A stretch of DNA of 64,000 nucleotides from a virus (IMGVR_UViG_3300027971_000028:1-64000), one strand, 5' to 3'; positions 1,796-20,266 are shown, counted from the first letter of the stretch. The notes: generated by a model from the sequence alone, not told the origin. Numbers and translations: made by a program.

Positions 1796-1849
1796 AGTTG
1801 TTTGTTTCTACCAGCTCCTCAGGAGCTCTGGATAGCAAAAAGTAAAAAA
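1796..1849 (+). repeat. Dispersed composite element, copy 1
   Basis: Box 1 AGTTGTTT starts at 1796 and box 2 AGCAAAAAGTAAAAAA starts at 1834, a start-to-start distance of 38. The spacer holds a GC-rich palindromic stretch (CCAGCTCCTCAGGAGCT). After box 2 comes a CCTGGTACAGCAG segment that recurs near copy 4. Confidence 0.8.
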
Positions 1850-2033
1850 GCGGCCTGGTACAGCAGCTGTGAGGACAATCTACAGAAGTTGTTTACATCT
1901 CTACCTGGTCAGCTCAACGGGCTTGGCGGCTTGACAGGCCTGATAGGATAGCTTTCTGCAGCACTGCATAAAGTTAAAAACAGAAAATTGTTTAGATGTT
2001 ACTTAGCCGACTAACGGCTTGTTACAGCGATCC

Positions 2034-2063
2034 TTGACAAACGGCTTGAGCCATTGCTAACAT
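2034..2063 (+). promoter_or_regulatory. Promoter of the WhiB gene, probably leaderless
   Basis: The sequence shows TTGACA (2034-2039), an 18-nt spacer and TAACAT (2058-2063). A start about 7 nt after the -10 box falls on the GTG at 2070, so the mRNA would begin at the start codon. No Shine-Dalgarno sequence precedes the GTG. Confidence 0.7.
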
Positions 2064-2069
2064 AACGGT

Positions 2070-2471
2070 GTGAACTCAGAACCCGTCTTCAATATCAATG
2101 ATGCATTAATACCGTCTGCCCGTAACTGGTCCTGGCAAGATAAAGCGCTGTGCAAAACTAACGGCGTGGACGTGACCGTGTTCTTTAATGATGACATGCT
2201 TCGCGGTCCTGAGAAGCAGGCACGGGAGAGTGCCGCCAAGAAAATATGTACGGCATGCCCTATCAAGACGGAGTGCTTAGAGCACGCATTAACGGTGCCC
2301 GAGAACTTCGGTGTGTGGGGAGGCTTGACAGAAGAGGAACGGATGGTTATTGTTAAGTTCAAGAGATCAATTGACAGAGCAGAGAAAGCAGGGATTAAAG
2401 CGGATGCTACTTCTTGGGTACATAGCGTACAAAGTGAATCAGATACAGAAACAATTACTACTACCGTCTGA
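2070..2471 (+). CDS. whiB: WhiB-family transcriptional regulator
   Basis: This 133-residue protein has the WhiB signature: Cys28, then Cys60, Cys63 and Cys69 (ICTACPIKTEC), which ligate a [4Fe-4S] cluster, followed by the GVWGG turn at 81-85 and TEEER. WhiB proteins bind the primary sigma factor and alter promoter choice; they are confined to Actinobacteria and their phages. The GTG start is set by the promoter 7 nt upstream, and the residues before the first Cys fit the family. The tail after about residue 110 is Thr/Glu-rich and variable. A role in host takeover or timing of phage transcription is inference. Confidence 0.93.
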   Translation: MNSEPVFNINDALIPSARNWSWQDKALCKTNGVDVTVFFNDDMLRGPEKQARESAAKKICTACPIKTECLEHALTVPENFGVWGGLTEEERMVIVKFKRSIDRAEKAGIKADATSWVHSVQSESDTETITTTV

Positions 2472-2622
2472 GTCGGATCAAAGAACCGCTGACACAATAA
2501 ATCGTTGGCTAAACAATTTTGTAGACAAAATAGATCCTGATAGATGTTGCACCCATGATGGTCATGAGAACTATTGTGTCTGCTGTATGAATGAACACGA
2601 GAAATGCCGTGTCCAAGACTGA
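2434..2622 (+). CDS. Cys-rich small protein
   Basis: This ORF overlaps the 3' end of the WhiB gene in another frame. The GTG at 2434 gives 62 residues; a TTG further upstream would lie deep inside WhiB and is unlikely. The C-terminal third is Cys/His-rich (CCTHDGHENYCVCC, then HEKC), which suggests a metal-binding knuckle. No family is recognised, and the start is uncertain. Confidence 0.45.
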   Translation: MNQIQKQLLLPSESDQRTADTINRWLNNFVDKIDPDRCCTHDGHENYCVCCMNEHEKCRVQD

Positions 2623-2623
2623 T

Positions 2624-2653
2624 TTGACAAACGCTTTGTCGTGTGATTATAAT
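2624..2653 (+). promoter_or_regulatory. Strong promoter, leaderless start at 2660
   Basis: The sequence shows TTGACA (2624-2629), an 18-nt spacer and a consensus TATAAT (2648-2653). Exactly six bases separate the -10 box from the ATG at 2660. The geometry copies that of the WhiB promoter and fixes the start of the next gene. Confidence 0.8.
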
Positions 2654-2659
2654 ATTCCT

Positions 2660-2977
2660 ATGACAAACCAATACAAAGCAGTAAACTCGAAAACCCTGAA
2701 AAGGCTGATCGATACCGCAAAAATGCTCAACTTCAATCAGTATCCTGAGAAGTCGCATAACTTATCTATGAATGGCATCCATGTTTTAAAGATGGTTGTC
2801 CAAGACCACAAAGGTCATACAAATAAAGACATCATTCATCACAGAGCATCTGTCTTGGCTAGTGTTGGTGGAAGTTCTGAACCAATAGAATTCCTACTTG
2901 ACATTAGAGATGAAGACTGGAATAATCTAGTTGATGCCAAAGCAATGGCAGATAGCGCAAGGGAATTAAATGTCTAA
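2660..2977 (+). CDS. Unknown protein, leaderless mRNA
   Basis: This 105-residue protein starts MTNQYKAVNSKTLKRLIDTA. The frame is open further upstream to 2591, but a consensus promoter lies within that stretch and would start the transcript at the ATG at 2660, so the shorter form is preferred. The middle (VVQDHKGHTNKDIIHHRASV) is His-rich. The gene overlaps the secreted protease gene downstream by 8 nt, so the two are probably co-transcribed. No family is recognised. Confidence 0.7.
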   Translation: MTNQYKAVNSKTLKRLIDTAKMLNFNQYPEKSHNLSMNGIHVLKMVVQDHKGHTNKDIIHHRASVLASVGGSSEPIEFLLDIRDEDWNNLVDAKAMADSARELNV

Positions 2978-3890
2978 AAAAGTTTTACTTATGGTGGTTG
3001 CGATATCAGCAACCCTACTTCCCCTTCAGTCTGCGAGCGCGGTTGGAGAAAAGACTTTAGTAATTATTGACTCAGGCATAAATACAGATTTGGCTTGGGC
3101 TAAAAACTCAGTTGTAGATGAGGCATGCTTCGTTGAGTTTAATAGATGTCCAAATGGATTATCACAAATGACTGGTGCTGGATCAGCAAAAGTAACTCCT
3201 GCTATGACAACTGCTGGTTCATTTAGTCATGGAACTCAAATGGCTTCAGTTGCGGTTGCGGTTGATCCAAATGTAAAAATTGTTTCTATCCGAGTTGCTG
3301 GTATGACTGCTAAGGGCGTTCCTAATCCTTACACAGCCAAAGCAATTTCTTGGGCGTTGGATTATGTGGAAGCAAATAAGGCACGACTTAATGTTGGTGC
3401 GGTTTCTATTTCTCTAGGTAACTCTTACAAATCAACTTCTTGTCCAATAGTTGGAAACCTACAAACACAGATTTCTAACCTAATGGCTTCAGGAGTAGCA
3501 GTTGCTATTGCAGTTGGTAATGGTGGCTCTACCAAAATTGACTACCCTGCTTGTATCCCTGAGGCAATTGCGGTTGGCGCAACTGAGGATAGATATGCCA
3601 TGAAAGAGGTGTCAGGTTGGGTGTATCCAATTATGGCTATCTCTAACTACAACTCTGATGTTGATTATTTCGTAAATGGTAAATACACAGTTTCTGATCT
3701 TTCAGATAATAAAAATGTTTCTTTCGGAACTTCTAACTCAACTGTGGCTTTTGCTACCTATCTAACCAAAAGACTTTCTGCTGGCGAGAACTTAACTGCG
3801 GTTTTGGCTAGCGTTAATGCTTCTCTAGTCAATGCCTACAAAACCACGACACTCTTTTATCCTAAGCAGTTTAACTTGACAAATGGTTAA
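2970..3890 (+). CDS. Secreted subtilisin-like (S8) serine protease
   Basis: This is a 306-residue protein. Residues 1-24 form a signal peptide (MSKK, a hydrophobic core, then SASA). The S8 catalytic set is present in order: Asp34 in IIDSGIN, His87 in SHGTQMAS, the oxyanion Asn184 in AVGNGG, and Ser255 in FGTSNSTVAFA, where cellular enzymes usually read GTSMAAP. Four cysteines (53, 60, 158, 195) could form disulfides after export. There is no obvious propeptide or C-terminal anchor. Subtilases hydrolyse proteins. A phage could use one to alter surface proteins, free cell debris or assist spread, but the role here is unknown. It is co-transcribed with the 2660 gene. Confidence 0.9.
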   Translation: MSKKVLLMVVAISATLLPLQSASAVGEKTLVIIDSGINTDLAWAKNSVVDEACFVEFNRCPNGLSQMTGAGSAKVTPAMTTAGSFSHGTQMASVAVAVDPNVKIVSIRVAGMTAKGVPNPYTAKAISWALDYVEANKARLNVGAVSISLGNSYKSTSCPIVGNLQTQISNLMASGVAVAIAVGNGGSTKIDYPACIPEAIAVGATEDRYAMKEVSGWVYPIMAISNYNSDVDYFVNGKYTVSDLSDNKNVSFGTSNSTVAFATYLTKRLSAGENLTAVLASVNASLVNAYKTTTLFYPKQFNLTNG

Positions 3891-3903
3891 AAACTGTTAA
3901 GAT
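3876..3903 (+). promoter_or_regulatory. Promoter with -35 in the protease 3' end
   Basis: The sequence shows TTGACA (3876-3881), which encodes part of the protease tail (NLTNG), then 16 nt and TAAGAT (3898-3903). It would drive the microprotein run from 3930, whose ribosome site is AAAGGGG at about 3917. Confidence 0.6.
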
Positions 3904-3929
3904 AAAGACAACTAGAAAGGGGTAGCCAA

Positions 3930-4106
3930 ATGGCTAAGTATCAAATGCTGATTTCTTTCGAGACAGATAAAGAACTTTCATCTGACGAGCAAGATAATTT
4001 AGTAGGGCATGTAGCACCACAAATTGAAGAACCAATTACAAGTGATGGAGATGATGAGGAATACTCAACATCAAACTTACAAATCTCACTAGAGGAGATT
4101 AAGTAA
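3930..4106 (+). CDS. Acidic small protein
   Basis: This 58-residue ORF is preceded by GAAAGGGG at a good distance. The product is strongly acidic (SDGDDEEYSTSN, LEEIK). Its stop overlaps the next start (TAATG). It is the first of four coupled small genes. No family is recognised; acidic phage microproteins often inhibit host nucleic-acid-binding proteins, but nothing specific is seen here. Confidence 0.7.
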   Translation: MAKYQMLISFETDKELSSDEQDNLVGHVAPQIEEPITSDGDDEEYSTSNLQISLEEIK

Positions 4107-4240
4107 TGGGTAAAGCAGTAATTTGTGAATGCGGTTATCAATTATCTACAAAGGCTAGAACTTGTTCTAACTGTGATGAAATGTTTAACGAGGAATTAGA
4201 AACCTATATTGAAGCAATTGAAACTAGAGGAGATAAGTAA
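4106..4240 (+). CDS. Zinc-ribbon microprotein
   Basis: This 44-residue ORF is coupled on both sides by TAATG. CECG and CSNC, 13 residues apart, make a four-cysteine zinc ribbon (MGKAVICECG...ARTCSNC). An acidic helix follows. It belongs to the group of Cys-pair microproteins in the left arm. Confidence 0.7.
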   Translation: MGKAVICECGYQLSTKARTCSNCDEMFNEELETYIEAIETRGDK

Positions 4241-4395
4241 TGGGTCAAGCAATTTGGCAACATACTATTACACAAGACATGGTCGCTAAGTTAGATGACA
4301 ATCAACTAAGCCTATTCATAGATTCTTTAGAGAACTCTATAGATGAAATATATTCAAACTTTGATGTAGTTTCTACGACAGAAAAGGGGCAATAA
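4240..4395 (+). CDS. Small protein, unknown
   Basis: This 51-residue ORF is coupled to the upstream gene by TAATG and is followed 4 nt later by the next start. The product begins MGQAIWQH and is rich in Asp, Leu and Ser, probably helical. Its first residues resemble the MGQYH of its neighbour, but the rest is not similar. Confidence 0.65.
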   Translation: MGQAIWQHTITQDMVAKLDDNQLSLFIDSLENSIDEIYSNFDVVSTTEKGQ

Positions 4396-4399
4396 TAAA

Positions 4400-4786
4400 A
4401 TGGGTCAATATCATGTTCTAGCAAACCTAGACAAAAAAGAAGTTGTAACACCACACGGGCTCGGCATGGGCTTAAAGCAATGGGAACATATCGGGGGAAC
4501 TGCTTCACTAGCAGATGCTCAGTATATTTTAACCATGACTTCTCCAAACCGAGGCGGGGGAGATTTACCCCGAACGGACATCTCAGGCTCTTGGGCAGGC
4601 GACAGAGTTGTGATACTCGGTGACTACACAGAGGACTCGGACTTACCTAATATCCCTAATGCTGGCTCGCTCTGGGGTGAGACGGACAAGTGGGTAGATA
4701 TAACAGATTCTGTTGCTACCGCTTTTGAAGCGGTATTCAATGTAAAAATAACTGGCGAGGGTTGGAAGACTAGAGCCACCTTGTAA
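4400..4786 (+). CDS. Conserved MGQY-type protein, function unknown
   Basis: This 128-residue protein begins MGQYHVLANLDKKE. I recognise this opening (MGQYY-x-VNLDKKE) from a widespread family of uncharacterised bacterial and phage proteins. The Gly-rich PNRGGGDLP stretch and the SWAGDRVVILGDY motif also look conserved. No catalytic signature is evident. It is the last gene before a strong hairpin, so it ends the 3930-4786 transcription unit. Confidence 0.7.
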   Translation: MGQYHVLANLDKKEVVTPHGLGMGLKQWEHIGGTASLADAQYILTMTSPNRGGGDLPRTDISGSWAGDRVVILGDYTEDSDLPNIPNAGSLWGETDKWVDITDSVATAFEAVFNVKITGEGWKTRATL

Positions 4787-4803
4787 TACTCTTAACTTAC
4801 TTT

Positions 4804-4854
4804 AGGCGTGTCTTTTAAGCCCGTATAGAAATACGGCAAGGGCACGCCTTTTGT
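4804..4854 (+). terminator. Hairpin terminator
   Basis: AGGCGTG (4804-4810) pairs with CACGCCT at the far end, with an inner CCGTAT/ATACGG stem. A T-rich tail (TTTTGTATTTTC) follows. It closes the microprotein operon. Confidence 0.75.
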
Positions 4855-4912
4855 ATTTTCAAAAATACCCCCCATTCTTCCTAGACAAAAAAATGTAAAC
4901 TAAATCTATACA

Positions 4913-4965
4913 AGTTGTTTATACACTACTCCGAAAGTTGGAAGACTCCTTAGCAAAAAGTAAAA
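4913..4965 (+). repeat. Dispersed composite element, copy 2
   Basis: AGTTGTTT starts at 4913 and AGCAAAAAGTAAAA at 4952, a distance of 39. A solitary box 2 follows at 4983-4997, flanked by GAGGCA and TTGCC, so that the A-rich box would form the loop of a hairpin. Confidence 0.75.
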
Positions 4966-5089
4966 TTAGGCTCAGCGAGGCAAGCAAAAAGTAAAAATTG
5001 CCGCTTTTTATTTAACTGAGCCAGGTGAAGAAGTTATTGTGATGTGGTGCTATTCCGGCGTTTGTCACCTGAACGAGTGGCAAGGGTGC

Positions 5090-5118
5090 TTGACAAAAAG
5101 ATTCGGTTGTTATACGAT
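5090..5118 (+). promoter_or_regulatory. Promoter for the 5209 gene
   Basis: The sequence shows TTGACA (5090-5095), 17 nt, then TACGAT (5113-5118). The preceding AGGGTGC is shared with the promoter near 13309. Transcription would yield a structured leader of about 85 nt. Confidence 0.6.
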
Positions 5119-5208
5119 AAGGCTTCGCACCGCTACTCCGATAGTGAGAACCTAAGTGGGTTAGTCCGCTACTTGCGAACACGGACTACAAAATAATAAG
5201 GGGGAAAT

Positions 5209-5475
5209 ATGAAAGACGATATACAAGAACGCTGGAACGAAGGATATTACTCTGCTCTAAATGGGGCAAAGATTATTCGTTTTCTTGGCACTGTTCCTGA
5301 AGAGTTTGGTGGAACTGGTTTTCCACAGTTTCTAGTAAAACTCTCAACAGGGGAAATTATAGAGATGGAAGTTTCTAAAGATCCCGAAGGTAATGATGGC
5401 GGATTTTTATTTGGACTTCCTGATTTTACTTTACCTGAGTTTCGTGAAAATTTATTAGGGAGGAAAAATGCCTAA
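5209..5475 (+). CDS. Unknown small acidic protein
   Basis: This 88-residue protein is preceded by AAGGGGG seven bases before the ATG. It has a Gly/Phe-rich middle (PEEFGGTGFPQFLVKLSTGE) that looks like beta strands. It overlaps the following DUF1281-like gene by 8 nt, so the two are translated together. No family is recognised. Confidence 0.7.
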   Translation: MKDDIQERWNEGYYSALNGAKIIRFLGTVPEEFGGTGFPQFLVKLSTGEIIEMEVSKDPEGNDGGFLFGLPDFTLPEFRENLLGRKNA

Positions 5476-6130
5476 CTGGGTATTTAACCATTTAACAATA
5501 GATGGTTCTAAAGAAGACATAGCAAAAGTAAAAGCGCAGGTTGGCGCAACTGTTAAAACAAAATATAAAAGCGCAGATGAAGTAGATGAAGAAGTAGATA
5601 GAGAACCTATTTTCTCTTTCATGAATATACTTCCACCACCAGAAGATAAGTTAGATGAGTATCACGCTGTTCATGGATACGCAGATGGAAAGAAATCAGG
5701 CGATACTGAATACAACTGGTATAACTTTAATGTCCGTGAGTGGGGAACTAAGTGGGATGCTCGTGATGTAGAACTTCTAGATGATGATGAAACATATCTT
5801 CAGTATAAGTTTGATACTGCTTGGTCACCGCCAACTGAAGTAATAGCAAAACTAGCAGAACAAAATCCTAATCTAAACATTACTTTGGAGTATCGTGAAG
5901 AACAGGGTTGGGGTGGAGAGATTGCTTTTAATGGTTCTACTGCTGAAGTTGTAAAAGAGTGGGATGTGCCAGACACTCATGCTGAAGAGATAGCAGTTAA
6001 TAATGGCTACTGCTGGAAGTGTGAAAACTTTGATGGGGATTTCAGCGACCTTTATCAAGATTGCCCTGAAAGCCTAAAGCCAATAGAACTCCACGCCAAG
6101 CAAGAACTGGTATTGACAAAAGAAAAGTAA
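5468..6130 (+). CDS. DUF1281/YubB-like protein (api92 type)
   Basis: This 220-residue protein opens MPNWVFNHLTIDGSKEDIAK, the hallmark of the DUF1281 (api92/YubB) family of plasmids and phages. Family features seen are the FSFMNILPPPE segment, the YNWYNFNVREWGTKWDA region, and the FDTAWSPPTEVIAKLAEQNP block followed by a strand ending in EEQGWGG. The family has a ferredoxin-like fold and no established biochemical role. A C-terminal extension carries CWKC and a late Cys. Its last codons contain the -35 box for the next gene. Confidence 0.85.
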   Translation: MPNWVFNHLTIDGSKEDIAKVKAQVGATVKTKYKSADEVDEEVDREPIFSFMNILPPPEDKLDEYHAVHGYADGKKSGDTEYNWYNFNVREWGTKWDARDVELLDDDETYLQYKFDTAWSPPTEVIAKLAEQNPNLNITLEYREEQGWGGEIAFNGSTAEVVKEWDVPDTHAEEIAVNNGYCWKCENFDGDFSDLYQDCPESLKPIELHAKQELVLTKEK

Positions 6131-6141
6131 TTTGATAGAGT
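6113..6141 (+). promoter_or_regulatory. Promoter with -35 inside the upstream gene
   Basis: The sequence shows TTGACA (6113-6118, coding LTK of the upstream C-terminus), 17 nt, then TAGAGT (6136-6141). The leader is about 25 nt with AAAGGGG before the ATG at 6173. Confidence 0.55.
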
Positions 6142-6172
6142 TCTACCAAGCCTAAAGAAAAGGGGAAATAAA

Positions 6173-6571
6173 ATGGGTGATCGTATGGTGATTGGGTTTC
6201 AGGCAAAATCTGCCGAACCAACAATCTATCTCTACGCACAATGGGGTGGAGAAGCACAAAAAGAAATCCTAGTAAATGCTTTACAAAAATCAGAAAGTCG
6301 TTGGACAGATGCCGACTACGCAACTCGTATTTGTATTTCACAAATCGTGGGTGATAGTTGGAACGATACTTTGGGATTTGGTATCTCAGTAAATAATTTC
6401 TGCTCGCCTGACTACGACACAATTCAGGTAGTTGAGTGGCACAAAGGAAAAGTATCTATTCGGGAAACAAGTAATCCTGAAAATGTTCTAGAGGAAATCA
6501 CCCTAGAAACTTTCTGCCAAGACGACACGCTGGTAAAAGAGCAATTTGACAAAATAGTCAAAGGTATGTAA
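6173..6571 (+). CDS. Conserved phage protein of unknown function
   Basis: This 132-residue protein has an AAAAGGGG ribosome site. The pattern MGDRMVIGFQ, YLYAQWGG, then ADYATRICISQIVG and GFGIS resembles uncharacterised proteins common in actinophage early regions. It is predicted mixed alpha/beta, with no catalytic motif noted. The gene appears monocistronic, with a promoter on each side. Confidence 0.7.
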   Translation: MGDRMVIGFQAKSAEPTIYLYAQWGGEAQKEILVNALQKSESRWTDADYATRICISQIVGDSWNDTLGFGISVNNFCSPDYDTIQVVEWHKGKVSIRETSNPENVLEEITLETFCQDDTLVKEQFDKIVKGM

Positions 6572-6574
6572 TAA
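6546..6574 (+). promoter_or_regulatory. Promoter with -35 inside the upstream gene
   Basis: The sequence shows TTGACA (6546-6551, in the codons for FDK), 17 nt, then TAATAA (6569-6574). The gene it would drive starts at 6614 after a GAGAGGA ribosome site. Confidence 0.55.
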
Positions 6575-6613
6575 TATCCAAACAAGCAAGACAATTAACC
6601 TAGAGAGGAAAAA

Positions 6614-7069
6614 ATGTTAGACAAAGAAAAAAAAGTTCAGGGAGTTGCGGTGTATGCCGAGTTCCGAAAGCCGGGACAAGTCATGCAGATACTTGTGACA
6701 CCTGACGCATATAACACTTCGGGAAGCCTAGTTCCAATGTCTTTCCACCGCAGAATAATTACACCTGCGACACCTAAGAAACAATGGAGAACTACTTCCA
6801 TTAACTCTAAAGAGGTAAAAGATTTGATTGACAATAATCAAGTCTTACCTGATAGTGCTAAAGATGATTTTACAGAAAATCGTATGCGCTATACAACTTC
6901 TTACTTTGACCAAGTTATTTCACAAGGTTGGACTATGGAGAAAACTCCTATCCTTACTGAAATCTCTCGTCATGACGCAGATGATATTGGTAAGAGCAAA
7001 ACACCTAACAAGGTTATTTATCGTATCCATATTTCTAGGAAAGCACTCGCCTTTCCTGAATTGGTATAA
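6614..7069 (+). CDS. Unknown protein
   Basis: This 151-residue protein has AGAGAGGA upstream. It is a basic, mixed alpha/beta protein (VAVYAEFRKPGQVMQILVTPDA at the start, VIYRIHISRKALAFPEL at the end). The gene lies 18 nt before the AAA+ ATPase gene, which has no obvious promoter of its own, so the two are probably one transcript. No family is recognised. Confidence 0.65.
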   Translation: MLDKEKKVQGVAVYAEFRKPGQVMQILVTPDAYNTSGSLVPMSFHRRIITPATPKKQWRTTSINSKEVKDLIDNNQVLPDSAKDDFTENRMRYTTSYFDQVISQGWTMEKTPILTEISRHDADDIGKSKTPNKVIYRIHISRKALAFPELV

Positions 7070-8206: not shown

Positions 8207-8212
8207 ATTAAC

Positions 8213-10042: not shown

Positions 10043-10124
10043 CCAAAAAGAACGAGTGGAACTCCTACCCCTTTGGGGTTTCACTCTGCTAGTTATTTGC
10101 GGCAGCGGCGAAAGCAAAAAGTAA
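10029..10124 (+). CDS. Possible 31-residue membrane microprotein
   Basis: This GTG ORF overlaps the end of the VWA gene and terminates exactly in the repeat box (SKK then TAA). The middle is hydrophobic (LLPLWGFTLLVICG), enough for one short membrane segment. The same DNA forms a hairpin (10053-10085), so it may instead be only a terminator. No strong ribosome site is present. Confidence 0.25.
   Translation: MKVLNQKERVELLPLWGFTLLVICGSGESKK
10053..10085 (+). terminator. Hairpin after the VWA gene
   Basis: GAGTG and GAA pair with TTTC and CACTC, and CCCC pairs with GGGG around a TTT loop, with an internal bulge on the left. There is no T-run, so it may be an RNA-processing or partial terminator hairpin. 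Confidence 0.45.
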
Positions 10125-10128
10125 AAAA
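10113..10128 (+). repeat. Box 2 of the dispersed element, directly before a start codon
   Basis: AGCAAAAAGTAAAAAA ends two bases before the ATG at 10130. A short form AAAAAGTAAAAA (10611-10622) sits directly before the next gene's ATG at 10623. Other solitary copies are at 11531-11545, 13215-13230, 14576-14595 (interrupted), 15006-15021, 18421-18435 and 19987-20002. Confidence 0.75.
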
Positions 10129-11529: not shown

Positions 11530-11563
11530 AAGCAAAAAGTAAAAATCAGGTGGTTGTTGCTGC

Positions 11564-11591
11564 TTGACTTTTTATTTTAAACTGGTATTAT
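11564..11591 (+). promoter_or_regulatory. Promoter for the DUF3846-like gene
   Basis: The sequence shows TTGACT (11564-11569), 16 nt, then TATTAT (11586-11591), shortly after a box 2 copy at 11531-11545. Confidence 0.6.
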
Positions 11592-12045: not shown

Positions 12046-12050
12046 GTAAA

Positions 12051-12105
12051 AGTTGTTTGGAAGTCTGCGGCCCTGGCTGCTCTGGCACAGCAAAAAGTAA
12101 AAAAA
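12051..12105 (+). repeat. Dispersed composite element, copy 3
   Basis: AGTTGTTT starts at 12051 and AGCAAAAAGTAAAAAAA at 12089, a distance of 38. The spacer (GCGGCCCTGGCTGC, CTGGCA) is partly complementary to the GCCGCTGCCAGG that follows box 2, so box 2 can lie in the loop of a stem. Confidence 0.8.
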
Positions 12106-12164: not shown

Positions 12165-12193
12165 TTGACTTTCCTAGAACAAGGGCGTATTGT
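12165..12193 (+). promoter_or_regulatory. Promoter for the 12241 gene
   Basis: The sequence shows TTGACT (12165-12170), 17 nt, then TATTGT (12188-12193). Confidence 0.6.
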
Positions 12194-12699: not shown

Positions 12700-13164
12700 A
12701 TGACAACAAAGACACTAACAATAGGTGAAGCAGTAAAATCTATGAACTTTCTTGCTACTAACTTTATGGAAACAAACGAGTTAGATAGAGAAGCGTTAGA
12801 GATATCCAGTAAAGCAATAAGTAAAAATCTACTTATTCGTGATTACTTTATGGGTATGCCGAAAGACTTCGGATTACCTTTTATGACTTCTCTATGTAAA
12901 AAAATGATAAGTGAGGTAGATAGTTCAGAACTTCTTGACCTATACGCAATTTATTCAGCGTTCTTATATGAGGGTGGAGAAAGCGAACTTGCTTTAGATA
13001 ACCTAAATAAAGCGTCAGAGATAAATAATAAGCACCCACTAACAGAACTGTTGGTTCGTGTTTATGAACACGCTTGGGAAGCAAGTAGTTTCTCTGAGAT
13101 GAGAAGTGCTATCCACAAAAAAGTTATTGCTGAAGCAAAGAAATACGCAAAAGACGAAATCTAA
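12700..13164 (+). CDS. DUF4192-like protein (tentative)
   Basis: This 154-residue helical protein has AAGGGGGAAA before the ATG. The order IRDYFMGMPKDFG, then LYAIYSAFLYEGGESELALDNLNKA and PLTELLVRVYEHA resembles the C-terminal part of DUF4192 proteins of Actinobacteria and their phages, where a short helical repeat follows an RD motif. The match is by pattern only; a plain TPR-like helical protein is the alternative. It is bounded by terminators on both sides, so it may rely on read-through or on the preceding promoter. Confidence 0.6.
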   Translation: MTTKTLTIGEAVKSMNFLATNFMETNELDREALEISSKAISKNLLIRDYFMGMPKDFGLPFMTSLCKKMISEVDSSELLDLYAIYSAFLYEGGESELALDNLNKASEINNKHPLTELLVRVYEHAWEASSFSEMRSAIHKKVIAEAKKYAKDEI

Positions 13165-13178: not shown

Positions 13179-13200
13179 CCCCGCCAAGTGCGGGGTTTTT
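13179..13200 (+). terminator. Rho-independent terminator
   Basis: CCCCGC pairs with GCGGGG around CAAGT, followed by five Ts. Confidence 0.88.
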
Positions 13201-13308
13201 CTTTATGCGGCTACAGCAAAAAGTAAAAAATTACCAAGATGCCGCTGCTACAGAACTATAAACAATTTGGCTATGTGGGATAGGCAATTAAAAAACAGCG
13301 AGGGGTGC

Positions 13309-13336
13309 TTGACTAAATTATGTAAGTATGTAATAC
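13309..13336 (+). promoter_or_regulatory. Promoter for the 13364 operon
   Basis: The sequence shows TTGACT (13309-13314), 16 nt, then TAATAC (13331-13336). GGGGTGC precedes the -35 box, as at 5090. Confidence 0.55.
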
Positions 13337-14760: not shown

Positions 14761-15006
14761 ATGGAAATCGTAGATAAGTATTACCACTCCAACGGCTCTG
14801 CCGTTCCATTTATTGCCGCCCTTGTTGATGACCCCGCTGATGGAGATACAAAAATTGTTATTATGTTTGACGAGAGGGACTTTACTGCTGTTCTTTCGCT
14901 AGACTCTCTACTTCGAGATGAGGATATCTCAGCAAGAAACAATGGATATCACGGAGACAAGTATGAAAAACTTAGAGAAGATTTGTGGGATGGGTTTTTA
15001 GACTAA
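14761..15006 (+). CDS. Unknown protein
   Basis: This 81-residue acidic protein (ALVDDPADGDTKIVIMFDER, then LSLDSLLRDEDISARNNGYH). The ATG follows a T-rich run and lacks a strong ribosome site. Its stop overlaps a box 2 copy (15006-15021). The next gene starts 32 nt downstream. No family is recognised. Confidence 0.6.
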   Translation: MEIVDKYYHSNGSAVPFIAALVDDPADGDTKIVIMFDERDFTAVLSLDSLLRDEDISARNNGYHGDKYEKLREDLWDGFLD

Positions 15007-15038
15007 GCAAAAAGTAAAAAACAATTGGGGAAAAGACT

Positions 15039-15611
15039 ATGACAACTATTGCAGCGATACAGGGTGAGAACTGGGCTGCTATTGGGTATGACTCAAGGCT
15101 AACTGAAGACAATAGCAAGATCTATACGCTGCCTAAAGATAATGGCAAAGTAAATAGAAATGGTCCATACTTAATTGGCGCGGCTGGAGATATGCGTGCC
15201 ATCAACATACTTACACATGTTTTTAAGCCACCTGCGATAAATCCAAACCTTTACGGGGCAAAGTTGGATAAGTTTATTTCTTCAGTCTTTATCCAAGATA
15301 TGAAACACTGTTTCGAGGAGAACTCTTACAGCAAAGATGGAGAGCATGACTCTCAGGTAATGGTTGCGGTTAATGGAACTATCTACGAGATTGGTGATGA
15401 CTTCTCTTGGGCGCATGATGAAACAGGCGTATATGCCATAGGTTCAGGGGGCGGATACGCAATGGGAGCAATGCTGGCAAGCCTAGACAGCAAAAAGAAA
15501 ACCTTAGGCACAGCCAAAAATGTCATTAGACAAGCAATAACTATCGCTGCCAAGTTAGATCCAAGCACAGGGTTGCCGATCAATATCGCGGTGCAGCACT
15601 TCGGATCTTAA
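15039..15611 (+). CDS. Ntn-hydrolase, proteasome beta/HslV-like
   Basis: This 190-residue protein begins MTTIAAIQGENWAAIGYDSR. After Met removal Thr2 would be the N-terminal nucleophile, Asp18 takes the place of proteasome Asp17, and a Lys follows in the 33-37 region (PKDNGK). The later YLIGAAGDMRA and AIGSGGGYAMGAMLA segments match the fold's Gly-rich turns, and the C-terminal TGLPINIAVQ strand fits too. Proteins of this class occur in actinophages, where targets are unknown. There is no propeptide, unlike bacterial proteasome beta subunits. It may act as a small peptidase or amidase rather than a barrel proteasome. Confidence 0.85.
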   Translation: MTTIAAIQGENWAAIGYDSRLTEDNSKIYTLPKDNGKVNRNGPYLIGAAGDMRAINILTHVFKPPAINPNLYGAKLDKFISSVFIQDMKHCFEENSYSKDGEHDSQVMVAVNGTIYEIGDDFSWAHDETGVYAIGSGGGYAMGAMLASLDSKKKTLGTAKNVIRQAITIAAKLDPSTGLPINIAVQHFGS

Positions 15612-15652
15612 AAAGTTGTTTTGATCTGGGCCTACTAGCGGCTGAAGATATA

Positions 15653-15708
15653 TTTTTTTTACTTTTTGCTAAGAAGAAACACCTGAGCATCATACTTGCC
15701 AACAACTT
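15653..15708 (-). repeat. Dispersed composite element, inverted copy
   Basis: On the minus strand AGTTGTTG (15708-15701) is followed by AGCAAAAAGTAAAAAAAA (15670-15653), a start-to-start distance near 37-38. It is the only copy seen on this strand. An additional forward AGTTGTTT lies at 15614. Confidence 0.65.
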
Positions 15709-15724
15709 ATTAACATGATAGTAT
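15696..15724 (+). promoter_or_regulatory. Promoter for the 15750 gene
   Basis: The sequence shows TTGCCA (15696-15701), 17 nt, then TAGTAT (15719-15724). Its -35 box overlaps box 1 of the inverted repeat element, so a protein bound there could regulate it. Confidence 0.5.
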
Positions 15725-15749
15725 CTGTATTGAAAGAGGGGGAAATAAA

Positions 15750-16058
15750 ATGGCGAACTTCGACCTAGTAAAAGAAAGAGTTGGCGATGCTAAGGCTATC
15801 GCTTGGGATAGTTGCCACAAGATTTACTTGCTAATGGACGATGAGCAGGTAGAAACAATGCGTGGCTACGAGTATGACCCACTAATTAGAAACAAAGAAC
15901 TAACACCTGAAGAAATGCTAACAACCTTGCAAAACTGGTATTCAAATTCTTGCGGGCTTAGATTTATTCAAGCGGTTACTACTAACCACATAGATCCAAA
16001 CGCTGGCTTCGAAATCCTAATAGGACAGGGTGAACATGAAGAATACGAGGAAGACTAA
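15750..16058 (+). CDS. Unknown acidic protein
   Basis: This 102-residue protein has GAGGGGGAAA before the ATG. The run AIAWDSCHKIYLLMDDEQVE, then ELTPEEMLTTLQNWY resembles proteins of unknown function seen in other actinophage early regions. Its stop is fused to the next start (TAATG). Confidence 0.7.
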   Translation: MANFDLVKERVGDAKAIAWDSCHKIYLLMDDEQVETMRGYEYDPLIRNKELTPEEMLTTLQNWYSNSCGLRFIQAVTTNHIDPNAGFEILIGQGEHEEYEED

Positions 16059-16150
16059 TGGTGGACTTACTAACAATAAAGTGCCGTGAGTGTCTACAAA
16101 CTATGAGCCGTGAGGAATACGCCTATGGACACGACTGCGAATCTGCCTAA
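16058..16150 (+). CDS. Zinc-finger-like microprotein (30 residues)
   Basis: This ORF is coupled by TAATG. It has CREC in the first half and HDC near the end, the same CxxC...HxC layout as the 1196-1360 product. A terminator follows at once, so it is the last gene of the unit. Confidence 0.55.
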   Translation: MVDLLTIKCRECLQTMSREEYAYGHDCESA

Positions 16151-16164
16151 CATAAAATCAAACT

Positions 16165-16194
16165 AACTCCTTGCCTTACGGCAGGGAGTTTTTT
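16165..16194 (+). terminator. Rho-independent terminator
   Basis: AACTCC and TGCC pair with GGCA and GGGAGTT around TTAC, followed by a T-run. Confidence 0.85.
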
Positions 16195-16244
16195 ATTGGA
16201 AAAACCTTTACATTTTTTTCATCAAGGCGGTATGCACATCCAAA

Positions 16245-16299
16245 AGTTGTTTGTAAATCTGGATCTACAGCAGCATGGTCATAGCAAAAAGTAAAAAAA
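16245..16299 (+). repeat. Dispersed composite element, copy 4
   Basis: AGTTGTTT starts at 16245 and AGCAAAAAGTAAAAAAA at 16283, a distance of 38. TACAGCAG flanks box 2 on both sides (near 16265 and 16300). Another AGTTGTTT follows at about 16331. Confidence 0.8.
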
Positions 16300-16417
16300 T
16301 ACAGCAGCCTGGCTATTTGCGGCTTCGTAAGTTGTTTATAGATTTCAAAGCGGGCTCAAAGTGAGCGTAGGAAGTAAGCGCTTTTTCTGAAGGACAACTG
16401 TGGAAATTGTTGCCTTC

Positions 16418-16446
16418 TTGACAAAAAGTCAGGAAGGTGCTAATCT
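16418..16446 (+). promoter_or_regulatory. Promoter for the 16478 gene
   Basis: The sequence shows TTGACA (16418-16423), 17 nt, then TAATCT (16441-16446). It lies within an upstream open frame and so rules out the earlier start at 16400. Confidence 0.7.
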
Positions 16447-16477
16447 TACGAAACAAGGTAGGAGAAAGGGGAACTCA

Positions 16478-16654
16478 ATGAGAGGCTTACCTGATAGTGC
16501 GATACTAGGAACTTATGGTCGTATGAAACACATGAGGCACAAAAGTCGTCATAGTGCTAAGGAGTATCAAGCAACTGCTGATTTCCTAAACAATATGATA
16601 AACAAAGCAATACAAAAAAGATTAGACAAAAAAAGTAATTTGACAAAAATCTAA
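16478..16654 (+). CDS. Small basic protein, unknown
   Basis: This 58-residue protein has GGAGAAAGGGG before the ATG. It is strongly basic, Lys/Arg/His-rich (RMKHMRHKSRHSAKEYQAT; QKRLDKKSNLTKI), so nucleic-acid binding is plausible. Its last codons hold the -35 box of the phosphatase promoter. Confidence 0.7.
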   Translation: MRGLPDSAILGTYGRMKHMRHKSRHSAKEYQATADFLNNMINKAIQKRLDKKSNLTKI

Positions 16655-16668
16655 TTATTTACTAAAAT
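16640..16668 (+). promoter_or_regulatory. Promoter of the phosphatase gene
   Basis: TTGACA (16640-16645) encodes LTK of the preceding protein; then come 17 nt and TAAAAT (16663-16668). Confidence 0.65.
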
Positions 16669-16691
16669 ACAAAAAGAAAGGGTGGAACTAA

Positions 16692-17222
16692 ATGTTTTCC
16701 TTAGAAGATGAAGCAATAGAACTATTAGAAACAAAAATAGCACCACGCTCTTATACGATTGACTATCCAAAAGAGTTATGGTCAGAGGTTCTTCCTGGCT
16801 TATGGCAGGGCGGAACTGATGATGATGATGTCTTTGACCAACTAGCAAAGCCAATGATTACTAAGAAAGATTTTGACCTAGTAATTACCGCTTATGCTTC
16901 AGCGAACCCTGTTGATTGGTTTGTGAAAGAACTAAGGTTTGGATTTTACGACAGCGATATGCAGGACTTTGACCCTAATGAGTTAAAGCCGATTGTTCGC
17001 ATGGCACATGAGGATTGGAAACGCGGTCAGCGTGTCTTAATTCGTTGCCAAGCAGGTATGAACAGATCAGGCTTGATCATGGCTCTCGTTCTTATCCGTG
17101 AAGGTTATACGGCAGATGAGGCAATTAACTTGATCAGAACCAAGAGAAGCAAGCACGCCTTGTTCAATGGTCGCTTTGAGAAGTGGCTTAAAGAGGCAAG
17201 CGTTGAGGCTTGGAGAAACTAA
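16692..17222 (+). CDS. Dual-specificity phosphatase-like protein
   Basis: This 176-residue protein has LWQGG at 38-41, an FDLVITAYAS strand, and the P-loop IRCQAGMNRSG with the catalytic Cys119 and Arg125. The usual His before the Cys is Arg118 here. FYDSDMQDF (86-93) supplies Asp candidates for the general acid. The C-terminal helices are typical of cysteine-based DSPs. Proteins like this occur in actinophages; the substrate may be phosphoprotein, RNA 5' triphosphate or phosphoinositide. Its stop overlaps the next start. Confidence 0.85.
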   Translation: MFSLEDEAIELLETKIAPRSYTIDYPKELWSEVLPGLWQGGTDDDDVFDQLAKPMITKKDFDLVITAYASANPVDWFVKELRFGFYDSDMQDFDPNELKPIVRMAHEDWKRGQRVLIRCQAGMNRSGLIMALVLIREGYTADEAINLIRTKRSKHALFNGRFEKWLKEASVEAWRN

Positions 17223-17386
17223 TGCCTAGATACGAGATTATCTTTGAGAAGAACAAGACTAAGGTCATACGGGCATCTTCGCTAGAGATTGCTGAAGAAA
17301 GAGCGACCAAGATGGAAGTAGATGGTTGGGCAGTTATGCGTATCTACGAGCAAAAGGGGCAACACGCCGAAAGTCAGGAAAGTTGA
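17222..17386 (+). CDS. Small basic protein, unknown
   Basis: This 54-residue ORF is coupled by TAATG to the phosphatase gene. MPRYEIIFEKNKTKVIRASS looks like two beta strands followed by a helix (LEIAEERATKME) and a strand, a compact alpha/beta fold. No family is recognised. Confidence 0.6.
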   Translation: MPRYEIIFEKNKTKVIRASSLEIAEERATKMEVDGWAVMRIYEQKGQHAESQES

Positions 17387-17410
17387 TTTTGTCAGGAAAG
17401 TCTGTATAAT
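17383..17410 (+). promoter_or_regulatory. Promoter of the lysis-region operon
   Basis: The sequence shows TTGATT (17383-17388), 16 nt, then a consensus TATAAT (17405-17410). GTCAGGAAAG occurs twice around the -35 box. Confidence 0.55.
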
Positions 17411-17416
17411 TATCTT

Positions 17417-17433
17417 ATTGGCAAATTGTCAAT
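17417..17433. promoter_or_regulatory. Possible operator palindrome
   Basis: ATTGGCAAATTGTCAAT is a near-perfect inverted repeat (ATTG-x-CAA...TTG-x-CAAT) placed at the expected transcription start of the 17453 operon. That location suits a repressor site. Confidence 0.45.
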
Positions 17434-17452
17434 AGGACTGAAGGGGGTCTAT

Positions 17453-17608
17453 ATGAAAACGAAGGCAAAGTATATTAGACGCAGAGTGGTAGTAGCACTT
17501 GTGTTGATTGGTCTTATTGTTTGGGCTAACAACGCAACAACACCTGCCGAGTGTAAAGTGCCAACAGAGCAGATGAACCAATTCTGCTTAGATTTGTTAT
17601 ACCCATGA
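17453..17608 (+). CDS. Single-TM small membrane protein
   Basis: The ATG at 17453 has GAAGGGGG upstream; an open frame from 17426 would start before the ribosome site and is rejected. The 51-residue product has a basic N-terminus (MKTKAKYIRRR), one TM helix at about 12-27 (VVVALVLIGLIVWA), and an outside tail with two Cys. It could be a holin, antiholin or spanin-like component, given the lysozyme gene 1.7 kb downstream. It overlaps the next gene by ATGA. Confidence 0.6.
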   Translation: MKTKAKYIRRRVVVALVLIGLIVWANNATTPAECKVPTEQMNQFCLDLLYP

Positions 17609-17817
17609 ATATAGAACCAAAGACACCTAGTCCTGCTACCACGGCACAAAGTTTTGCAAGGGTGGAACTAATCAAGCGCCACCGCGCTGAGTATGACGAA
17701 ATCTATCGAGCAAAAATGATTGAGTTAGGTGGCACGCCAAAGCCTACTACTCAAGAAAAGATAGAACTGTTAAAACAAGAAATAGAAAAACTGCAATCAG
17801 AATTGGCTTATAACTAA
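17605..17817 (+). CDS. Coiled-coil small protein
   Basis: This 70-residue protein has an ATGA overlap with the upstream gene. The C-terminal 25 residues are a Lys/Glu/Leu coiled coil (QEKIELLKQEIEKLQSELAY). No family is recognised. Confidence 0.6.
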   Translation: MNIEPKTPSPATTAQSFARVELIKRHRAEYDEIYRAKMIELGGTPKPTTQEKIELLKQEIEKLQSELAYN

Positions 17818-18104
17818 TGTCTGATACGCATAATCACCTTGAACAACTAACTGAGAAATGGAACGAAGTCCCTAACTGGACAGTTCTTGAGTATTGGAAA
17901 GGAAAAGGAAAAGAAAGTAATAAGTTCTATTTTAAGATTTATGAAGATAGAACAGGAGAGCATGCACCGTTCTATTGCTTAGAGGAAAACAAAGAAAGTA
18001 GGACTTTTATCTACTGCGCCACGAGGACAAAAGACAGAAAAGGGTATATCTTTCACCTAGAGGAAATAGATATAGCCCCACAACTAGTAGGAAGTGAGAA
18101 ATAA
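17817..18104 (+). CDS. Unknown protein
   Basis: This 95-residue protein has a start that overlaps the previous stop (TAATG). It is Trp/Tyr/Phe-rich, with alternating strands (WTVLEYWKGKGKESNKFYFK; ESRTFIYCATRTKDRKGYIF), probably a small beta-sheet protein. No family is recognised. Confidence 0.6.
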   Translation: MSDTHNHLEQLTEKWNEVPNWTVLEYWKGKGKESNKFYFKIYEDRTGEHAPFYCLEENKESRTFIYCATRTKDRKGYIFHLEEIDIAPQLVGSEK

Positions 18105-18105
18105 T

Positions 18106-18252
18106 ATGATACTTGACACGGGAACAATGGTCGCTATTATTATTGCGCTTGCATGTTCATGCTTCGTAATGGTGCTTTCTATCGTAAAATATGGTGTTTT
18201 ATTTAGAGAGAACCAAGAACTAACCGAGAAATTAAGGAAAGGTAAAAAGTAA
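18106..18252 (+). CDS. Single-TM microprotein, holin candidate
   Basis: This 48-residue ORF starts 1 nt after the previous stop. One TM helix at about 8-30 (MVAIIIALACSCFVMVLSIV) is followed by a charged tail ending GKK. The stop codon lies within a short copy of the A-rich repeat box. Its size and topology suit a holin-type protein near the lysozyme gene. Confidence 0.55.
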   Translation: MILDTGTMVAIIIALACSCFVMVLSIVKYGVLFRENQELTEKLRKGKK

Positions 18253-18254
18253 AA

Positions 18255-18431
18255 ATGAACCAATTTCCAGAGTGCGACACCTTTAGGTGTCAGTTTGAGT
18301 GGCTTGACTTGTCAAGCAACTTCTTTGATATCTCAGTTTACACTCCTGCCGCACTTGCGGTGTTGTTTGGAGTTTTAATTTACAGAGCCGTTAAGAGAAA
18401 ACAGGGATCTGAGTTTAATGGCAAAAAGTAA
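18255..18431 (+). CDS. Single-TM microprotein, lysis candidate
   Basis: This 58-residue ORF starts 2 nt after the previous stop. It has an N-terminal segment with two Cys (ECDTFRCQFEW), then a TM helix at about 30-45 (TPAALAVLFGVLIY), then a basic tail (RAVKRKQ) ending in GKK. The final codons fall in the box 2 repeat. It overlaps the next gene by 14 nt. It could be an outward-facing partner of the 18106 product. Confidence 0.5.
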   Translation: MNQFPECDTFRCQFEWLDLSSNFFDISVYTPAALAVLFGVLIYRAVKRKQGSEFNGKK

Positions 18432-18618
18432 AAAACTAGAAAGTCAGGCTGCAGAACTATATACATCTGGTCTGGCTATCGATAGTGTTGCGGTTGAACT
18501 AGGAGTTTGTTATAGAACTGCTAGGAAGGCTATCCGTAATGGTGGAGTGCAACTAAGAGATCCCTCTTCTCGCTTGAGAGGTCGGACTAAACCTAACAAC
18601 AAGAAAGGCAAGAAATGA
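18418..18618 (+). CDS. Small HTH protein
   Basis: This 66-residue basic protein contains a helix-turn-helix at about 8-38 (AAELYTSGLAIDSVAVELGV then CYRTARKAIRNGG), of the resolvase/transposase type. It begins MAKSKK because its first codons are the repeat box GCAAAAAGTAAAAAA. The C-terminus is Arg/Lys/Asn-rich. Likely a DNA-binding regulator embedded in the lysis operon; target unknown. Confidence 0.65.
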   Translation: MAKSKKLESQAAELYTSGLAIDSVAVELGVCYRTARKAIRNGGVQLRDPSSRLRGRTKPNNKKGKK

Positions 18619-18767
18619 ACAACTTAAACATAGTATGGACTGCTGTAGGAACAATAGTCTTAGGACTTGCGACCCTACTGTCAGCATGGCAGGGTGACAT
18701 GACCTACACGGTGGCATTTGGTCTTGCATCAATTGCTTCGGCTACTTTGTCTAGCAGAGAGAAGTAA
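18615..18767 (+). CDS. Two-TM microprotein, holin candidate
   Basis: This 50-residue ORF has an ATGA overlap with the HTH gene. It has two hydrophobic helices (about 7-24 and 32-46) separated by a short polar turn (AWQGDMTY), and a charged end (SSREK). This is the shape of a class II holin. It is followed by a strong terminator. Of the four TM microproteins here it best fits a holin. Confidence 0.6.
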   Translation: MNNLNIVWTAVGTIVLGLATLLSAWQGDMTYTVAFGLASIASATLSSREK

Positions 18768-18792
18768 GCCAGAAGATAGTTTTCAGCAGAAG

Positions 18793-18828
18793 CCCCCTAG
18801 AACTTTGGTTGGGACTAGGGGGTTTTTT
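18793..18828 (+). terminator. Rho-independent terminator
   Basis: CCCCCTAG (18793-18800) pairs with CTAGGGGG (18815-18822), followed by six Ts. Confidence 0.92.
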
Positions 18829-18845
18829 GCTGTCTCGGCGTGTCT

Positions 18846-18874
18846 TTGACTATTTGTCAGGAAGGTGGTAGTAT
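18846..18874 (+). promoter_or_regulatory. Promoter for the 18898 gene and perhaps the lysin
   Basis: The sequence shows TTGACT (18846-18851), 17 nt, then TAGTAT (18869-18874). GTCAGGAAGG between the boxes also occurs near the promoters at 16418 and 17383. Confidence 0.65.
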
Positions 18875-18897
18875 TTGTCCTAAAGGGGGGTATTTAG

Positions 18898-19008
18898 ATG
18901 AAAACCATGAAAAAGCAAATCATTTATATTTCTTGCTGGAAATGTGGCAAATCTATGGCTGTAGCGGAGAAAGACTACCGAAATGGGCTCATATGTGAGA
19001 GTTGCTGA
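18898..19008 (+). CDS. Four-Cys zinc-ribbon microprotein
   Basis: This 36-residue ORF has AAAGGGGGG before the start. CWKC (13-16) and the terminal CESC make a complete four-Cys ribbon with 16 residues between the pairs. It is probably a zinc-binding regulator or toxin-like inhibitor; no target is known. Confidence 0.65.
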   Translation: MKTMKKQIIYISCWKCGKSMAVAEKDYRNGLICESC

Positions 19009-19184
19009 CCCAAAAACCTACTTTCCTGCACTATTTGTGGTAACCTGATACCTATGAAGCACCAAACGACTTACGACCTACGGACGCATTAGAAAGGTAG
19101 TTGTAATACCTGTCTCCCCAAAGCGGGTGGCACGGGTTGGCTAGTTAAGCAACCTTGTCTCTGTCCCCTAACAAAGGAAAATCA
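19009..19184 (+). other. Structured leader before the lysozyme-like gene
   Basis: About 175 nt lie between the microprotein stop and the lysin ATG. Small stems are visible (GGTA/TACC near 19097-19111, GGTTG/CAACC near 19135-19154), and AAAGGAAA precedes the ATG. Cell-wall hydrolase genes of Actinobacteria often have a regulatory leader, but I cannot match this one to a known riboswitch. Confidence 0.35.
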
Positions 19185-19787
19185 ATGCACAAACCCAGTA
19201 ATAGAGTTGTCGAACAAATAGCAAGCATATTAATTGCTGTTCTATCTGTGTCTATCTTCTCTACTTATATTCAATCGTCTGTCGCACAAACGACAACGCA
19301 AACAAAAGATGCACTAAAGATCCAGATTGACAAAGAAATAGAACAGCATAAAGTAAAAATTAAGCAGTTAGAGTTGAAGAAGTTCTCTGAGCAGAAGACT
19401 CCTTTCACGGATGAAGAGTTAGCCAAGATGCTAAGTGCCATTGGTTTTGAAGGTAGAGCACTTAAAGTAGCGTGGGCAGTAGTGAAGAAAGAGTCAAATG
19501 GACGCCCTCTAGCCTTTAATGACAATGTTAAAACAGGAGATCACTCATACGGCATGTTCCAAATCAACATGATCGGTGGATTAGGAGTAGCCCGTCGAGA
19601 TAAGTATGATCTTAAATCTAATACGGATCTGTTTGACCCAGTTGTTAATGCCCAGATTGCATATCACATGAGCAACGAAGGAAGTGATTGGTCATCATGG
19701 GGGGTAGGTAAGTTCCCTTATAATGGTGCTACCGACCAAGCCATGTATAACTTATGGATTACCAAGTTCCCAGAAGGAGCAATCTAG
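19185..19787 (+). CDS. Membrane-anchored lysozyme-like endolysin / transglycosylase
   Basis: The ATG at 19185 has AAAGGAAA upstream; a TTG at 19155 is in frame but lies before the ribosome site. The 200-residue product has an N-terminal hydrophobic segment at about 10-33 with a possible cleavage site (SSVAQ), a Lys/Glu coiled coil (42-67), and a lysozyme-fold domain. In the latter KESNGRP carries the presumed catalytic Glu, followed by SYGMFQINM and FDPVVNAQIAYHMS, as in SLT/phage lysozymes. It cleaves the peptidoglycan glycan strand. Its stop overlaps the next start (TAGTG). Confidence 0.85.
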   Translation: MHKPSNRVVEQIASILIAVLSVSIFSTYIQSSVAQTTTQTKDALKIQIDKEIEQHKVKIKQLELKKFSEQKTPFTDEELAKMLSAIGFEGRALKVAWAVVKKESNGRPLAFNDNVKTGDHSYGMFQINMIGGLGVARRDKYDLKSNTDLFDPVVNAQIAYHMSNEGSDWSSWGVGKFPYNGATDQAMYNLWITKFPEGAI

Positions 19788-20266
19788 TGAGCGATGAATT
19801 AAATCAAGAAGCCCCAGTCAGTTGGGAAGCCCCTGCTGAGGCTGAAGCCCCTGCGGTTGTAGAAGTTGTTTCTACTCCAGCAGAGCCAGAACCAGTTGTA
19901 GTTCCAGAACCAGAGCCAAAGCCAGTTGTTGAAGTTGTTGCTACTCCAGAGCCTGCGGCTGTAGTTGAAACACCTGCGGCTGAAGAAGCAAAAAGTAAAA
20001 AACCAGCAGCAGCCAGCTATCAAGATGGCGAAGTTGTTGTGTTGTCTAAGTTAGTTCTTAGCAGCAAAGAGAGAAACTCTAGGTCAGTTGCTTTAGTTCA
20101 AGAGCAATTGATATCAAAAGGATATGCCGATGCCGATATGGATAAACGCGGTTGGTATAAAGAGAATACCCAGAAGGCATTGTTAGAGTTCTGCGGCAGC
20201 GAAGGTATTAACGAAGCTACATTAAAAAAGCTATTCGCTAATACAAAGGTAGCAATAGCCTACTAA
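19787..20266 (+). CDS. Pro/Glu-rich protein with possible peptidoglycan-binding domain
   Basis: The GTG at 19787 overlaps the lysin TAG and follows AAGGAG by 7 nt; a longer frame from 19754 starts within the lysin and is rejected. The 159-residue protein has a Pro/Glu/Val/Ala-rich linker at about 8-75 (PEPEPKPVVEVVATPEP), then a short domain (RSVALVQEQLISKGYADADMDKR, GWYKENTQKALLEF) with the L-Q-x-x-L...G-x-x-t-x-x-A-l pattern of peptidoglycan-binding domains. There is no signal peptide. Box 2 of the repeat is embedded in frame (AKSKK). It likely acts with the lysin. Confidence 0.7.
   Translation: MSDELNQEAPVSWEAPAEAEAPAVVEVVSTPAEPEPVVVPEPEPKPVVEVVATPEPAAVVETPAAEEAKSKKPAAASYQDGEVVVLSKLVLSSKERNSRSVALVQEQLISKGYADADMDKRGWYKENTQKALLEFCGSEGINEATLKKLFANTKVAIAY

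Follow-up and report, generated by a model that had tools for sequence, protein, structure and literature searches.

Short asymmetric repeats in many copies have been described in two groups of mycobacteriophages. The SAS repeat of Cluster K is a 13-bp sequence present in 11-19 copies in the non-structural region, mostly in one orientation; AGGAG forms part of it, and start codons follow at a distance of 3-7 bases (PMC3203893). The second motif of ESAS is found at about half of the sites across a variable spacer and has a subcluster-specific consensus; the function of the SAS/ESAS repeats is unsettled (PMC3203893). The stoperators of Cluster A are asymmetric 13-bp sites with more than 20 copies, mostly in one orientation, and are bound by a repressor (PMC6550527, PMC9283540). 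Here we analyze a dispersed repeat in a 64,000-base stretch from the genome of a freshwater actinobacterial phage (IMGVR_UViG_3300027971_000028:1-64000, 'the window'; the complete record, G000, has 133,336 bases). The repeat is centered on a box, AGCAAAAAGTAAAA (box2; the site can also be written AGYAAAAAGTAAAAA), which is often flanked by a second box, AAGTTRTTTGKARTT (box1). We consider it probable, if not firmly so, that the repeat serves as a lineage-specific operator, through which a DNA-binding regulator of the phage coordinates a series of small transcription units, mainly from upstream of their promoters.

Box2 is present in the window in 11 exact copies, or 14 with at most one mismatch, against 0.16 expected by shuffling, and none of 100 shuffles reached 14. 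An initial annotation made from the sequence alone had reported about a dozen copies at 1.8-20 kb, confined to the left arm, and had proposed shuffled sequence, the rest of the genome and related phages as checks; all three agree with it. The whole record contains just two more copies, each with one mismatch, at 96,845 (minus strand) and at 132,551 (plus strand). The latter stands immediately 5′ of the terminase start codon, which implies that the arm extends past the end of the record. The terminase-like gene itself appears to cross that end (G000 132565-133336 plus window 1-907), and the record is therefore probably circularly permuted. Ten copies in the window are on the plus strand and one on the minus strand; the corresponding ratios are 21:1 in the related genome G006 and 14:3 in G005. 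The matches at 12,813 and 19,345 are weak, with one mismatch, and fall within predicted open reading frames (ORFs), and those at 18,244 and 10,611 lack AGC and are not proper copies. Over 142 non-redundant sites the information sits in TAGYAAAAAGTAAAAA, with none in the surrounding bases; at some sites the T preceding box2 opens a TAG stop codon that the box completes.

The full element reads box1, arm, box2, arm, box1, with sharply bounded distances between the boxes. Box1 reads A..T..RAAGTTRTTTGKARTT, occurs in either direction, and was searched for with a scoring matrix derived from other phages. There are 18 matches in the left 20.4 kb, where 0.87 are expected, and 13 in the remainder, where 4.8 are expected. 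Across 141-152 non-redundant sites, same-strand box1 upstream of box2 is mostly found at -34 to -44, and downstream it begins at +42 with none nearer, a zone shared by reverse box1. Both flanks are occupied at 33 sites, usually by direct repeats, and the box1-flanked arms have 55% GC compared with 41% for the genome. Box1 shows weak helical phasing with respect to box2. The five box1/box2 pairs that had been noticed at start-to-start distances of 37-39 bases were all recovered at their positions.

In the window, an exact box2 at 1834-1848 (+) lies in a box1-rich region (1708-1722, 1795-1809 and 1886-1900, all +; matrix scores 16.3, 18.0 and 18.0) upstream of a WhiB-like gene. A pair of box2 copies follows at 4952-4966 (+; last base different, conserved in relatives) and 4983-4997 (+; identical in relatives), between box1 copies at 4912-4926 (+; 13.4) and 5031-5045 (+; 19.1). 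Box2 at 12089-12103 (+) has box1 at 12050-12064 (+; 19.9), and that at 13215-13229 (+) has a reverse box1 at 13254-13268 (-; 12.4). The reverse box2 at 15656-15670 (-) is flanked by inward-facing box1 copies at 15613-15627 (+; 16.1) and 15694-15708 (-; 19.4), the second of which overlaps a predicted -35 element. The three-part element around box2 at 16283-16297 (+), compared across relatives, includes the highest-scoring of these box1 copies, at 16244-16258 (+; 23.2), and another at 16329-16343 (+; 18.9).

The boxes are under purifying selection. Identity to close relatives is 97.5% for box2, compared with 84% for neighboring sequence and 0.79-0.81 for the arms. Constraint at the DNA level is also seen in the gene at 19754-20266, where box2 (19987-20001, +) does lie within coding sequence, as the initial annotation had it. 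Its exact bases are held across relatives while the encoded residues vary (AKSKK, VKSKK, AKSKN). The whole three-part layout is retained within this gene in several lineages; in the window its box1 copies are at 19932-19946 (+; EVV codons, score 15.8, with the same geometry in relatives) and 20031-20045 (+; 17.4). The C/T allele of the coding copy mostly tracks the genome-wide allele, with G005 as an exception.

The repeat is a DNA site rather than an RNA signal, because its arms show no excess of pairing, some copies of box2 lie on the minus strand in gaps between genes of the plus strand, and many copies precede the promoter. Pairing energy between arms is no stronger than between swapped arms (-14.4 versus -14.7; mean fold z -0.19). 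Swapped-arm and shuffle controls thus rule out a stem around the box, and the GC-rich inverted-repeat stems described earlier do not hold as a general feature. Comparison of the left 22 kb of the window with Rfam gave nothing near a gathering score, only weak unrelated matches, and no family at the boxes. From the original alternatives of conserved DNA or conserved RNA, the first is therefore retained, and an antitermination or RNA-processing signal is unlikely. The proposal of a protein-binding site gains support from copies kept in place, intragenic DNA constraint, fixed geometry and lineage variants; the ligand would presumably be a phage protein.

Most copies fall between the end or terminator of the preceding gene and the next predicted promoter, and others overlap stop or start codons. 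Predicted -35 elements on the same strand number 36 at +70 to +139 from box2 versus 4 at -120 to -21. In the window, predicted promoters on the plus strand lie downstream of the paired boxes at 4952/4983 (5090-5118, at the same place in relatives), of box2 at 11531-11545 (+; immediately 3′ of a stop codon; promoter 11564-11591), of that at 12089 (12165-12193), of that at 13215 (13309-13336) and of that at 16283 (16418-16446, TTGACA-17-TAATCT); those for 11531, 12089 and 13215 were compared across relatives. The boxes at 12089 and 13215 lie between a terminator and the promoter, and a terminator-like hairpin with a T-run (13179-13203, +) is 5′ of the latter. A predicted promoter compared across relatives (15696-15724, +; TTGCCA-17-TAGTAT) adjoins the reverse box, and the WhiB-like gene has its own at 2034-2063 (+; TTGACA-18-TAACAT). 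Among 152 sites, a TAG stop codon is formed with the box edge at 14 and an AAAAATG start at the box end at another 14, a few of the latter being chance ORFs; both stand out among offsets. Box2 at 15006-15020 (+) overlaps the stop codon 5′ of an HslV/proteasome-like gene, and the orthologous place is occupied in distant clades. In the gap after a VWA/CobT-like gene, the copy at 10113-10127 (+) stands 5′ of the following start codon and overlaps or abuts it in several relatives. Two copies had been assigned to gene junctions, of which that at 18,420 is in coding sequence and that at 18,244 is the match without AGC. Small genes of this arm include a subtilase-like gene (2970-3890), the proteasome/HslV-like gene (15039-15611) and a dual-specificity-phosphatase-like gene (16692-17222).

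With the VWA/CobT-like and portal proteins as queries, 108 loci were gathered; among named phages, the closest are DSL-LC01, an Actinomycetia phage, and the Microbacterium phage Pumpernickel. The pattern AGYAAAAAGTAAAA is present in 14 of 22 relative records, and a reversed control pattern in none. Box2 is restricted to the terminase-portal arm in the window's phage and in these 14 records, and in long records the pattern is almost wholly in that arm. One clade has mostly AGT in place of AGC throughout. The composite pattern was found in 31 viral-contig stretches, largely of this phage group. Bacterial genomes (257 Gb) gave just 12 scattered single matches, one with a second box and none actinobacterial by record title, which contradicts a host origin.

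Other lineages carry different elements in the same slot. Of two more distant relatives, G016 has 38 copies of a different A-tract box, GTATTTATTTTTTCTG, and G015 has 41 copies of GTATTCGTTTTTTCC (both given in gene orientation). Each small gene has about one such box, placed after a terminator and before the promoter. Of 36 promoter motifs in G016, 26 begin at a distance of 42-47 bases from the box and five at 35-37 (Rayleigh p ~6e-7), which would place the box center near -72 or -62 relative to the transcription start. The G015 distances group about every 11 bases (p ~1e-4), with box orientation mixed (31:10). In DSL-LC01 (24796-37316) an inverted repeat, GATTCTAAAGATGTTATAATAGAATC, covers the -10 element in at least nine places and is likely a repressor operator, and the L016 group has an extended -10, CCTGATATAATAGTAC, instead. 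In each of these lineages one kind of control element serves the arm, but the kind differs between lineages. More tentatively, as a possibility short of a probability, the terminase-to-portal arm in freshwater actinobacterial phages may be an array of small transcription units sharing a control element whose whole set (sequence, orientation and type) is swapped between lineages.

The element can be likened to both SAS/ESAS and stoperators, and it lacks the defining features of SAS that we tested. Like SAS/ESAS, it is an asymmetric repeat limited to one part of the genome and mostly in one orientation, with a second motif across a spacer. Unlike SAS/ESAS, its box has an A-tract core and lies mostly between terminator and promoter, and about 25 bases separate it from its second box, which frequently occurs on both flanks and usually as direct repeats. 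Box2, TAGYAAAAAGTAAAAA, has no similarity to the SAS consensus GGGATAGGAGCCC, and the SAS position was not found: an ORF-opening ATG falls at +12 to +14 in only 17 of 152 sites, in part by chance. The resemblance to stoperators lies in short asymmetric sites in many copies, mainly in one orientation relative to transcription, in short intergenic spaces and with lineage-specific variants. They differ in that an identified repressor binds stoperators, whereas there is only a candidate protein with two helix-turn-helix (HTH) domains here; the sequences are unrelated, and the present sites have a second box and are mainly upstream of promoters. Location in transcribed DNA downstream of a promoter, a stoperator feature, may apply to the minority at stop and start codons, many others being upstream of predicted promoters. 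The PeSL cassettes of T4-type phages, described by Arbiol et al. in 2010, reportedly have a terminator and a promoter in the gaps that separate small genes in a plastic part of the genome. That setting is shared here, but there is no common stem-loop, since the box shows no surplus pairing around it; the conserved part is a box resembling a protein site. Class I activator sites offer another parallel, with CRP bound at -61.5 or -71.5. The G016 box has a comparable fixed and helically phased upstream position; the distances in the window's clade showed no clear phasing. A word search of papers on freshwater actinophages, together with literature searches, found no mention of such repeats.

The mechanism that we propose for the upstream operator is that a phage DNA-binding protein (or two) recognizes the asymmetric A-tract box2. 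At the fullest sites box1 would also be recognized, on one or both sides and about 25 variable bases away, and binding across box1-box2-box1 would give a three-part protein-DNA complex. Located downstream of one unit and ahead of the sigma70-type promoter that follows, this complex would set the timing or strength of transcription of the small genes as one regulon. The protein would presumably act on transcription initiation, and contact with RNA polymerase is suggested by analogy with the fixed or helically phased distances in distant relatives. Several observations weigh against this proposal. All promoters, -35 and -10 elements considered here are sequence predictions, and a strict finder located a terminator in the 120 bases 5′ of the box at just 17 of 152 sites. 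Spacing between box2 and the promoter is highly variable in the window's clade, without clear phasing, and the G015 and G016 boxes resemble box2 only loosely, so that the phasing argument is one by analogy. Copies abutting start codons (terminase, the gene after the VWA gene, and the gene at 5209 in relatives) are presumably downstream of the promoter; with the one intragenic copy, they mean that a purely upstream role cannot cover all sites. In addition, no candidate protein clearly covaries with box type.

The start-codon copies are better accounted for by the main rival to an upstream operator, a stoperator-like road-block, in which a monomeric phage protein on the asymmetric box2 would halt elongating RNA polymerase at unit boundaries and so silence or insulate the arm. 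Overlap with stop and start codons, an orientation that mostly follows transcription, and the intragenic copy also fit such a block, and the candidate two-HTH family is in outline like the repressor of TipsytheTRex, a monomer with two domains (PMC9283540). However, most copies are upstream rather than downstream of a predicted promoter, a block would not require the promoter phasing of G015 and G016, the orientation in G015 is mixed, and neither an immunity repressor nor a lysogeny module was identified. We regard the road-block as rather improbable. Sites of recombination or module exchange (PeSL-like), or a mobile short repeat as the initial annotation had also proposed, are unlikely. Boxes do lie between exchangeable gene blocks, and two of about 12 synteny breaks (~13240 and ~15671) are at boxes, but most of the breaks are away from them and the L001 gene block inserted at ~13300 carries no box. 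Copies also stay at orthologous places in close relatives, and just the boxes are alike, with no whole unit with ends as expected of a miniature inverted-repeat transposable element.

An A-tract core with many copies in 20 kb, one of them in coding sequence, could also suit structural DNA sites spread across the arm for partition, replication or compaction, in the manner of centromere- or nucleoid-protein sites. Such a role seems quite unlikely in view of the placement at unit boundaries and promoters, and of the roughly 40 copies, one per gene, in G015 and G016. A translation-linked RNA signal near gene starts, as in SAS, is very unlikely indeed: some genes have copies between the Shine-Dalgarno sequence and ATG, but most copies are upstream of promoters and some are on the non-coding strand, and the box has no Shine-Dalgarno sequence, shared RNA structure or Rfam family.

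For the regulator that would bind an upstream operator, candidate trans factors include the WhiB-like protein (2070-2471, +; PF02467, E 1.6e-21), whose gene adjoins the box1-rich region, and the product of 21005-21505 (+), whose homologs in Microbacterium phages carry an HTH annotation. A 66-amino-acid HTH gene at 18418 opens with box2 in most box-positive genomes; in the window this is a GGC variant, ATGGCAAAAAGTAAAAAA, at 18420-18434 (+), within its first codons (MAKSKK). Box-negative relatives retain this gene, its start without the box. In L069 and L091, box2 is within the first codons of a candidate-factor gene copy. Placement of the box in candidate regulator genes suggests putative autoregulation. 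Comparison of gene content and recognition helices revealed several common HTH genes, none decisive. In Pfam the WhiB match was significant, the HTH matches of the 66-amino-acid and two-HTH proteins were under curated cut-offs, and no significant relatives with solved structures were found for the candidate regulators.

Other sequences were observed near the boxes. A short conserved stretch at window 20798-21000 (TCCGGAAACGATTTAGAAA...) precedes a 166-amino-acid gene and the structural genes, and similar sequence adjoins box2 in L091, L095 and G021. In several clades a box2 has beside it GGTGGTGGCGGAGGCGGTGG, which is a G-rich tract, or the complement of this tract (window 1741-1772; L007 and L011 at ~4.0-4.5 kb). 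To the left of the box1 cluster, a long non-coding stretch at window 1360-1530 has inverted and tandem repeats (AACATTCC..., and GAGGGGGTATT three times) that produce weak, spurious hits to Rfam on either strand. Elsewhere, G000 70000-132400 contains many collagen-like repeat codons (GGTGCAACTGG and similar).

Dispersed repeats of the SAS/ESAS type have been known since 2011 and their function is still unsettled; this phage group supplies many natural variants within a single syntenic arm. In some lineages the distance between box and promoter is nearly fixed, so that a role in regulation can be tested directly. The group also shows clearly that an operator-like element can be conserved within coding sequence, and it illustrates how the operators of a whole regulon can change. 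The swap between lineages, if true, would mean that a regulatory code turns over rapidly and across the genome, coding sequence included, perhaps driven by immunity between phages.

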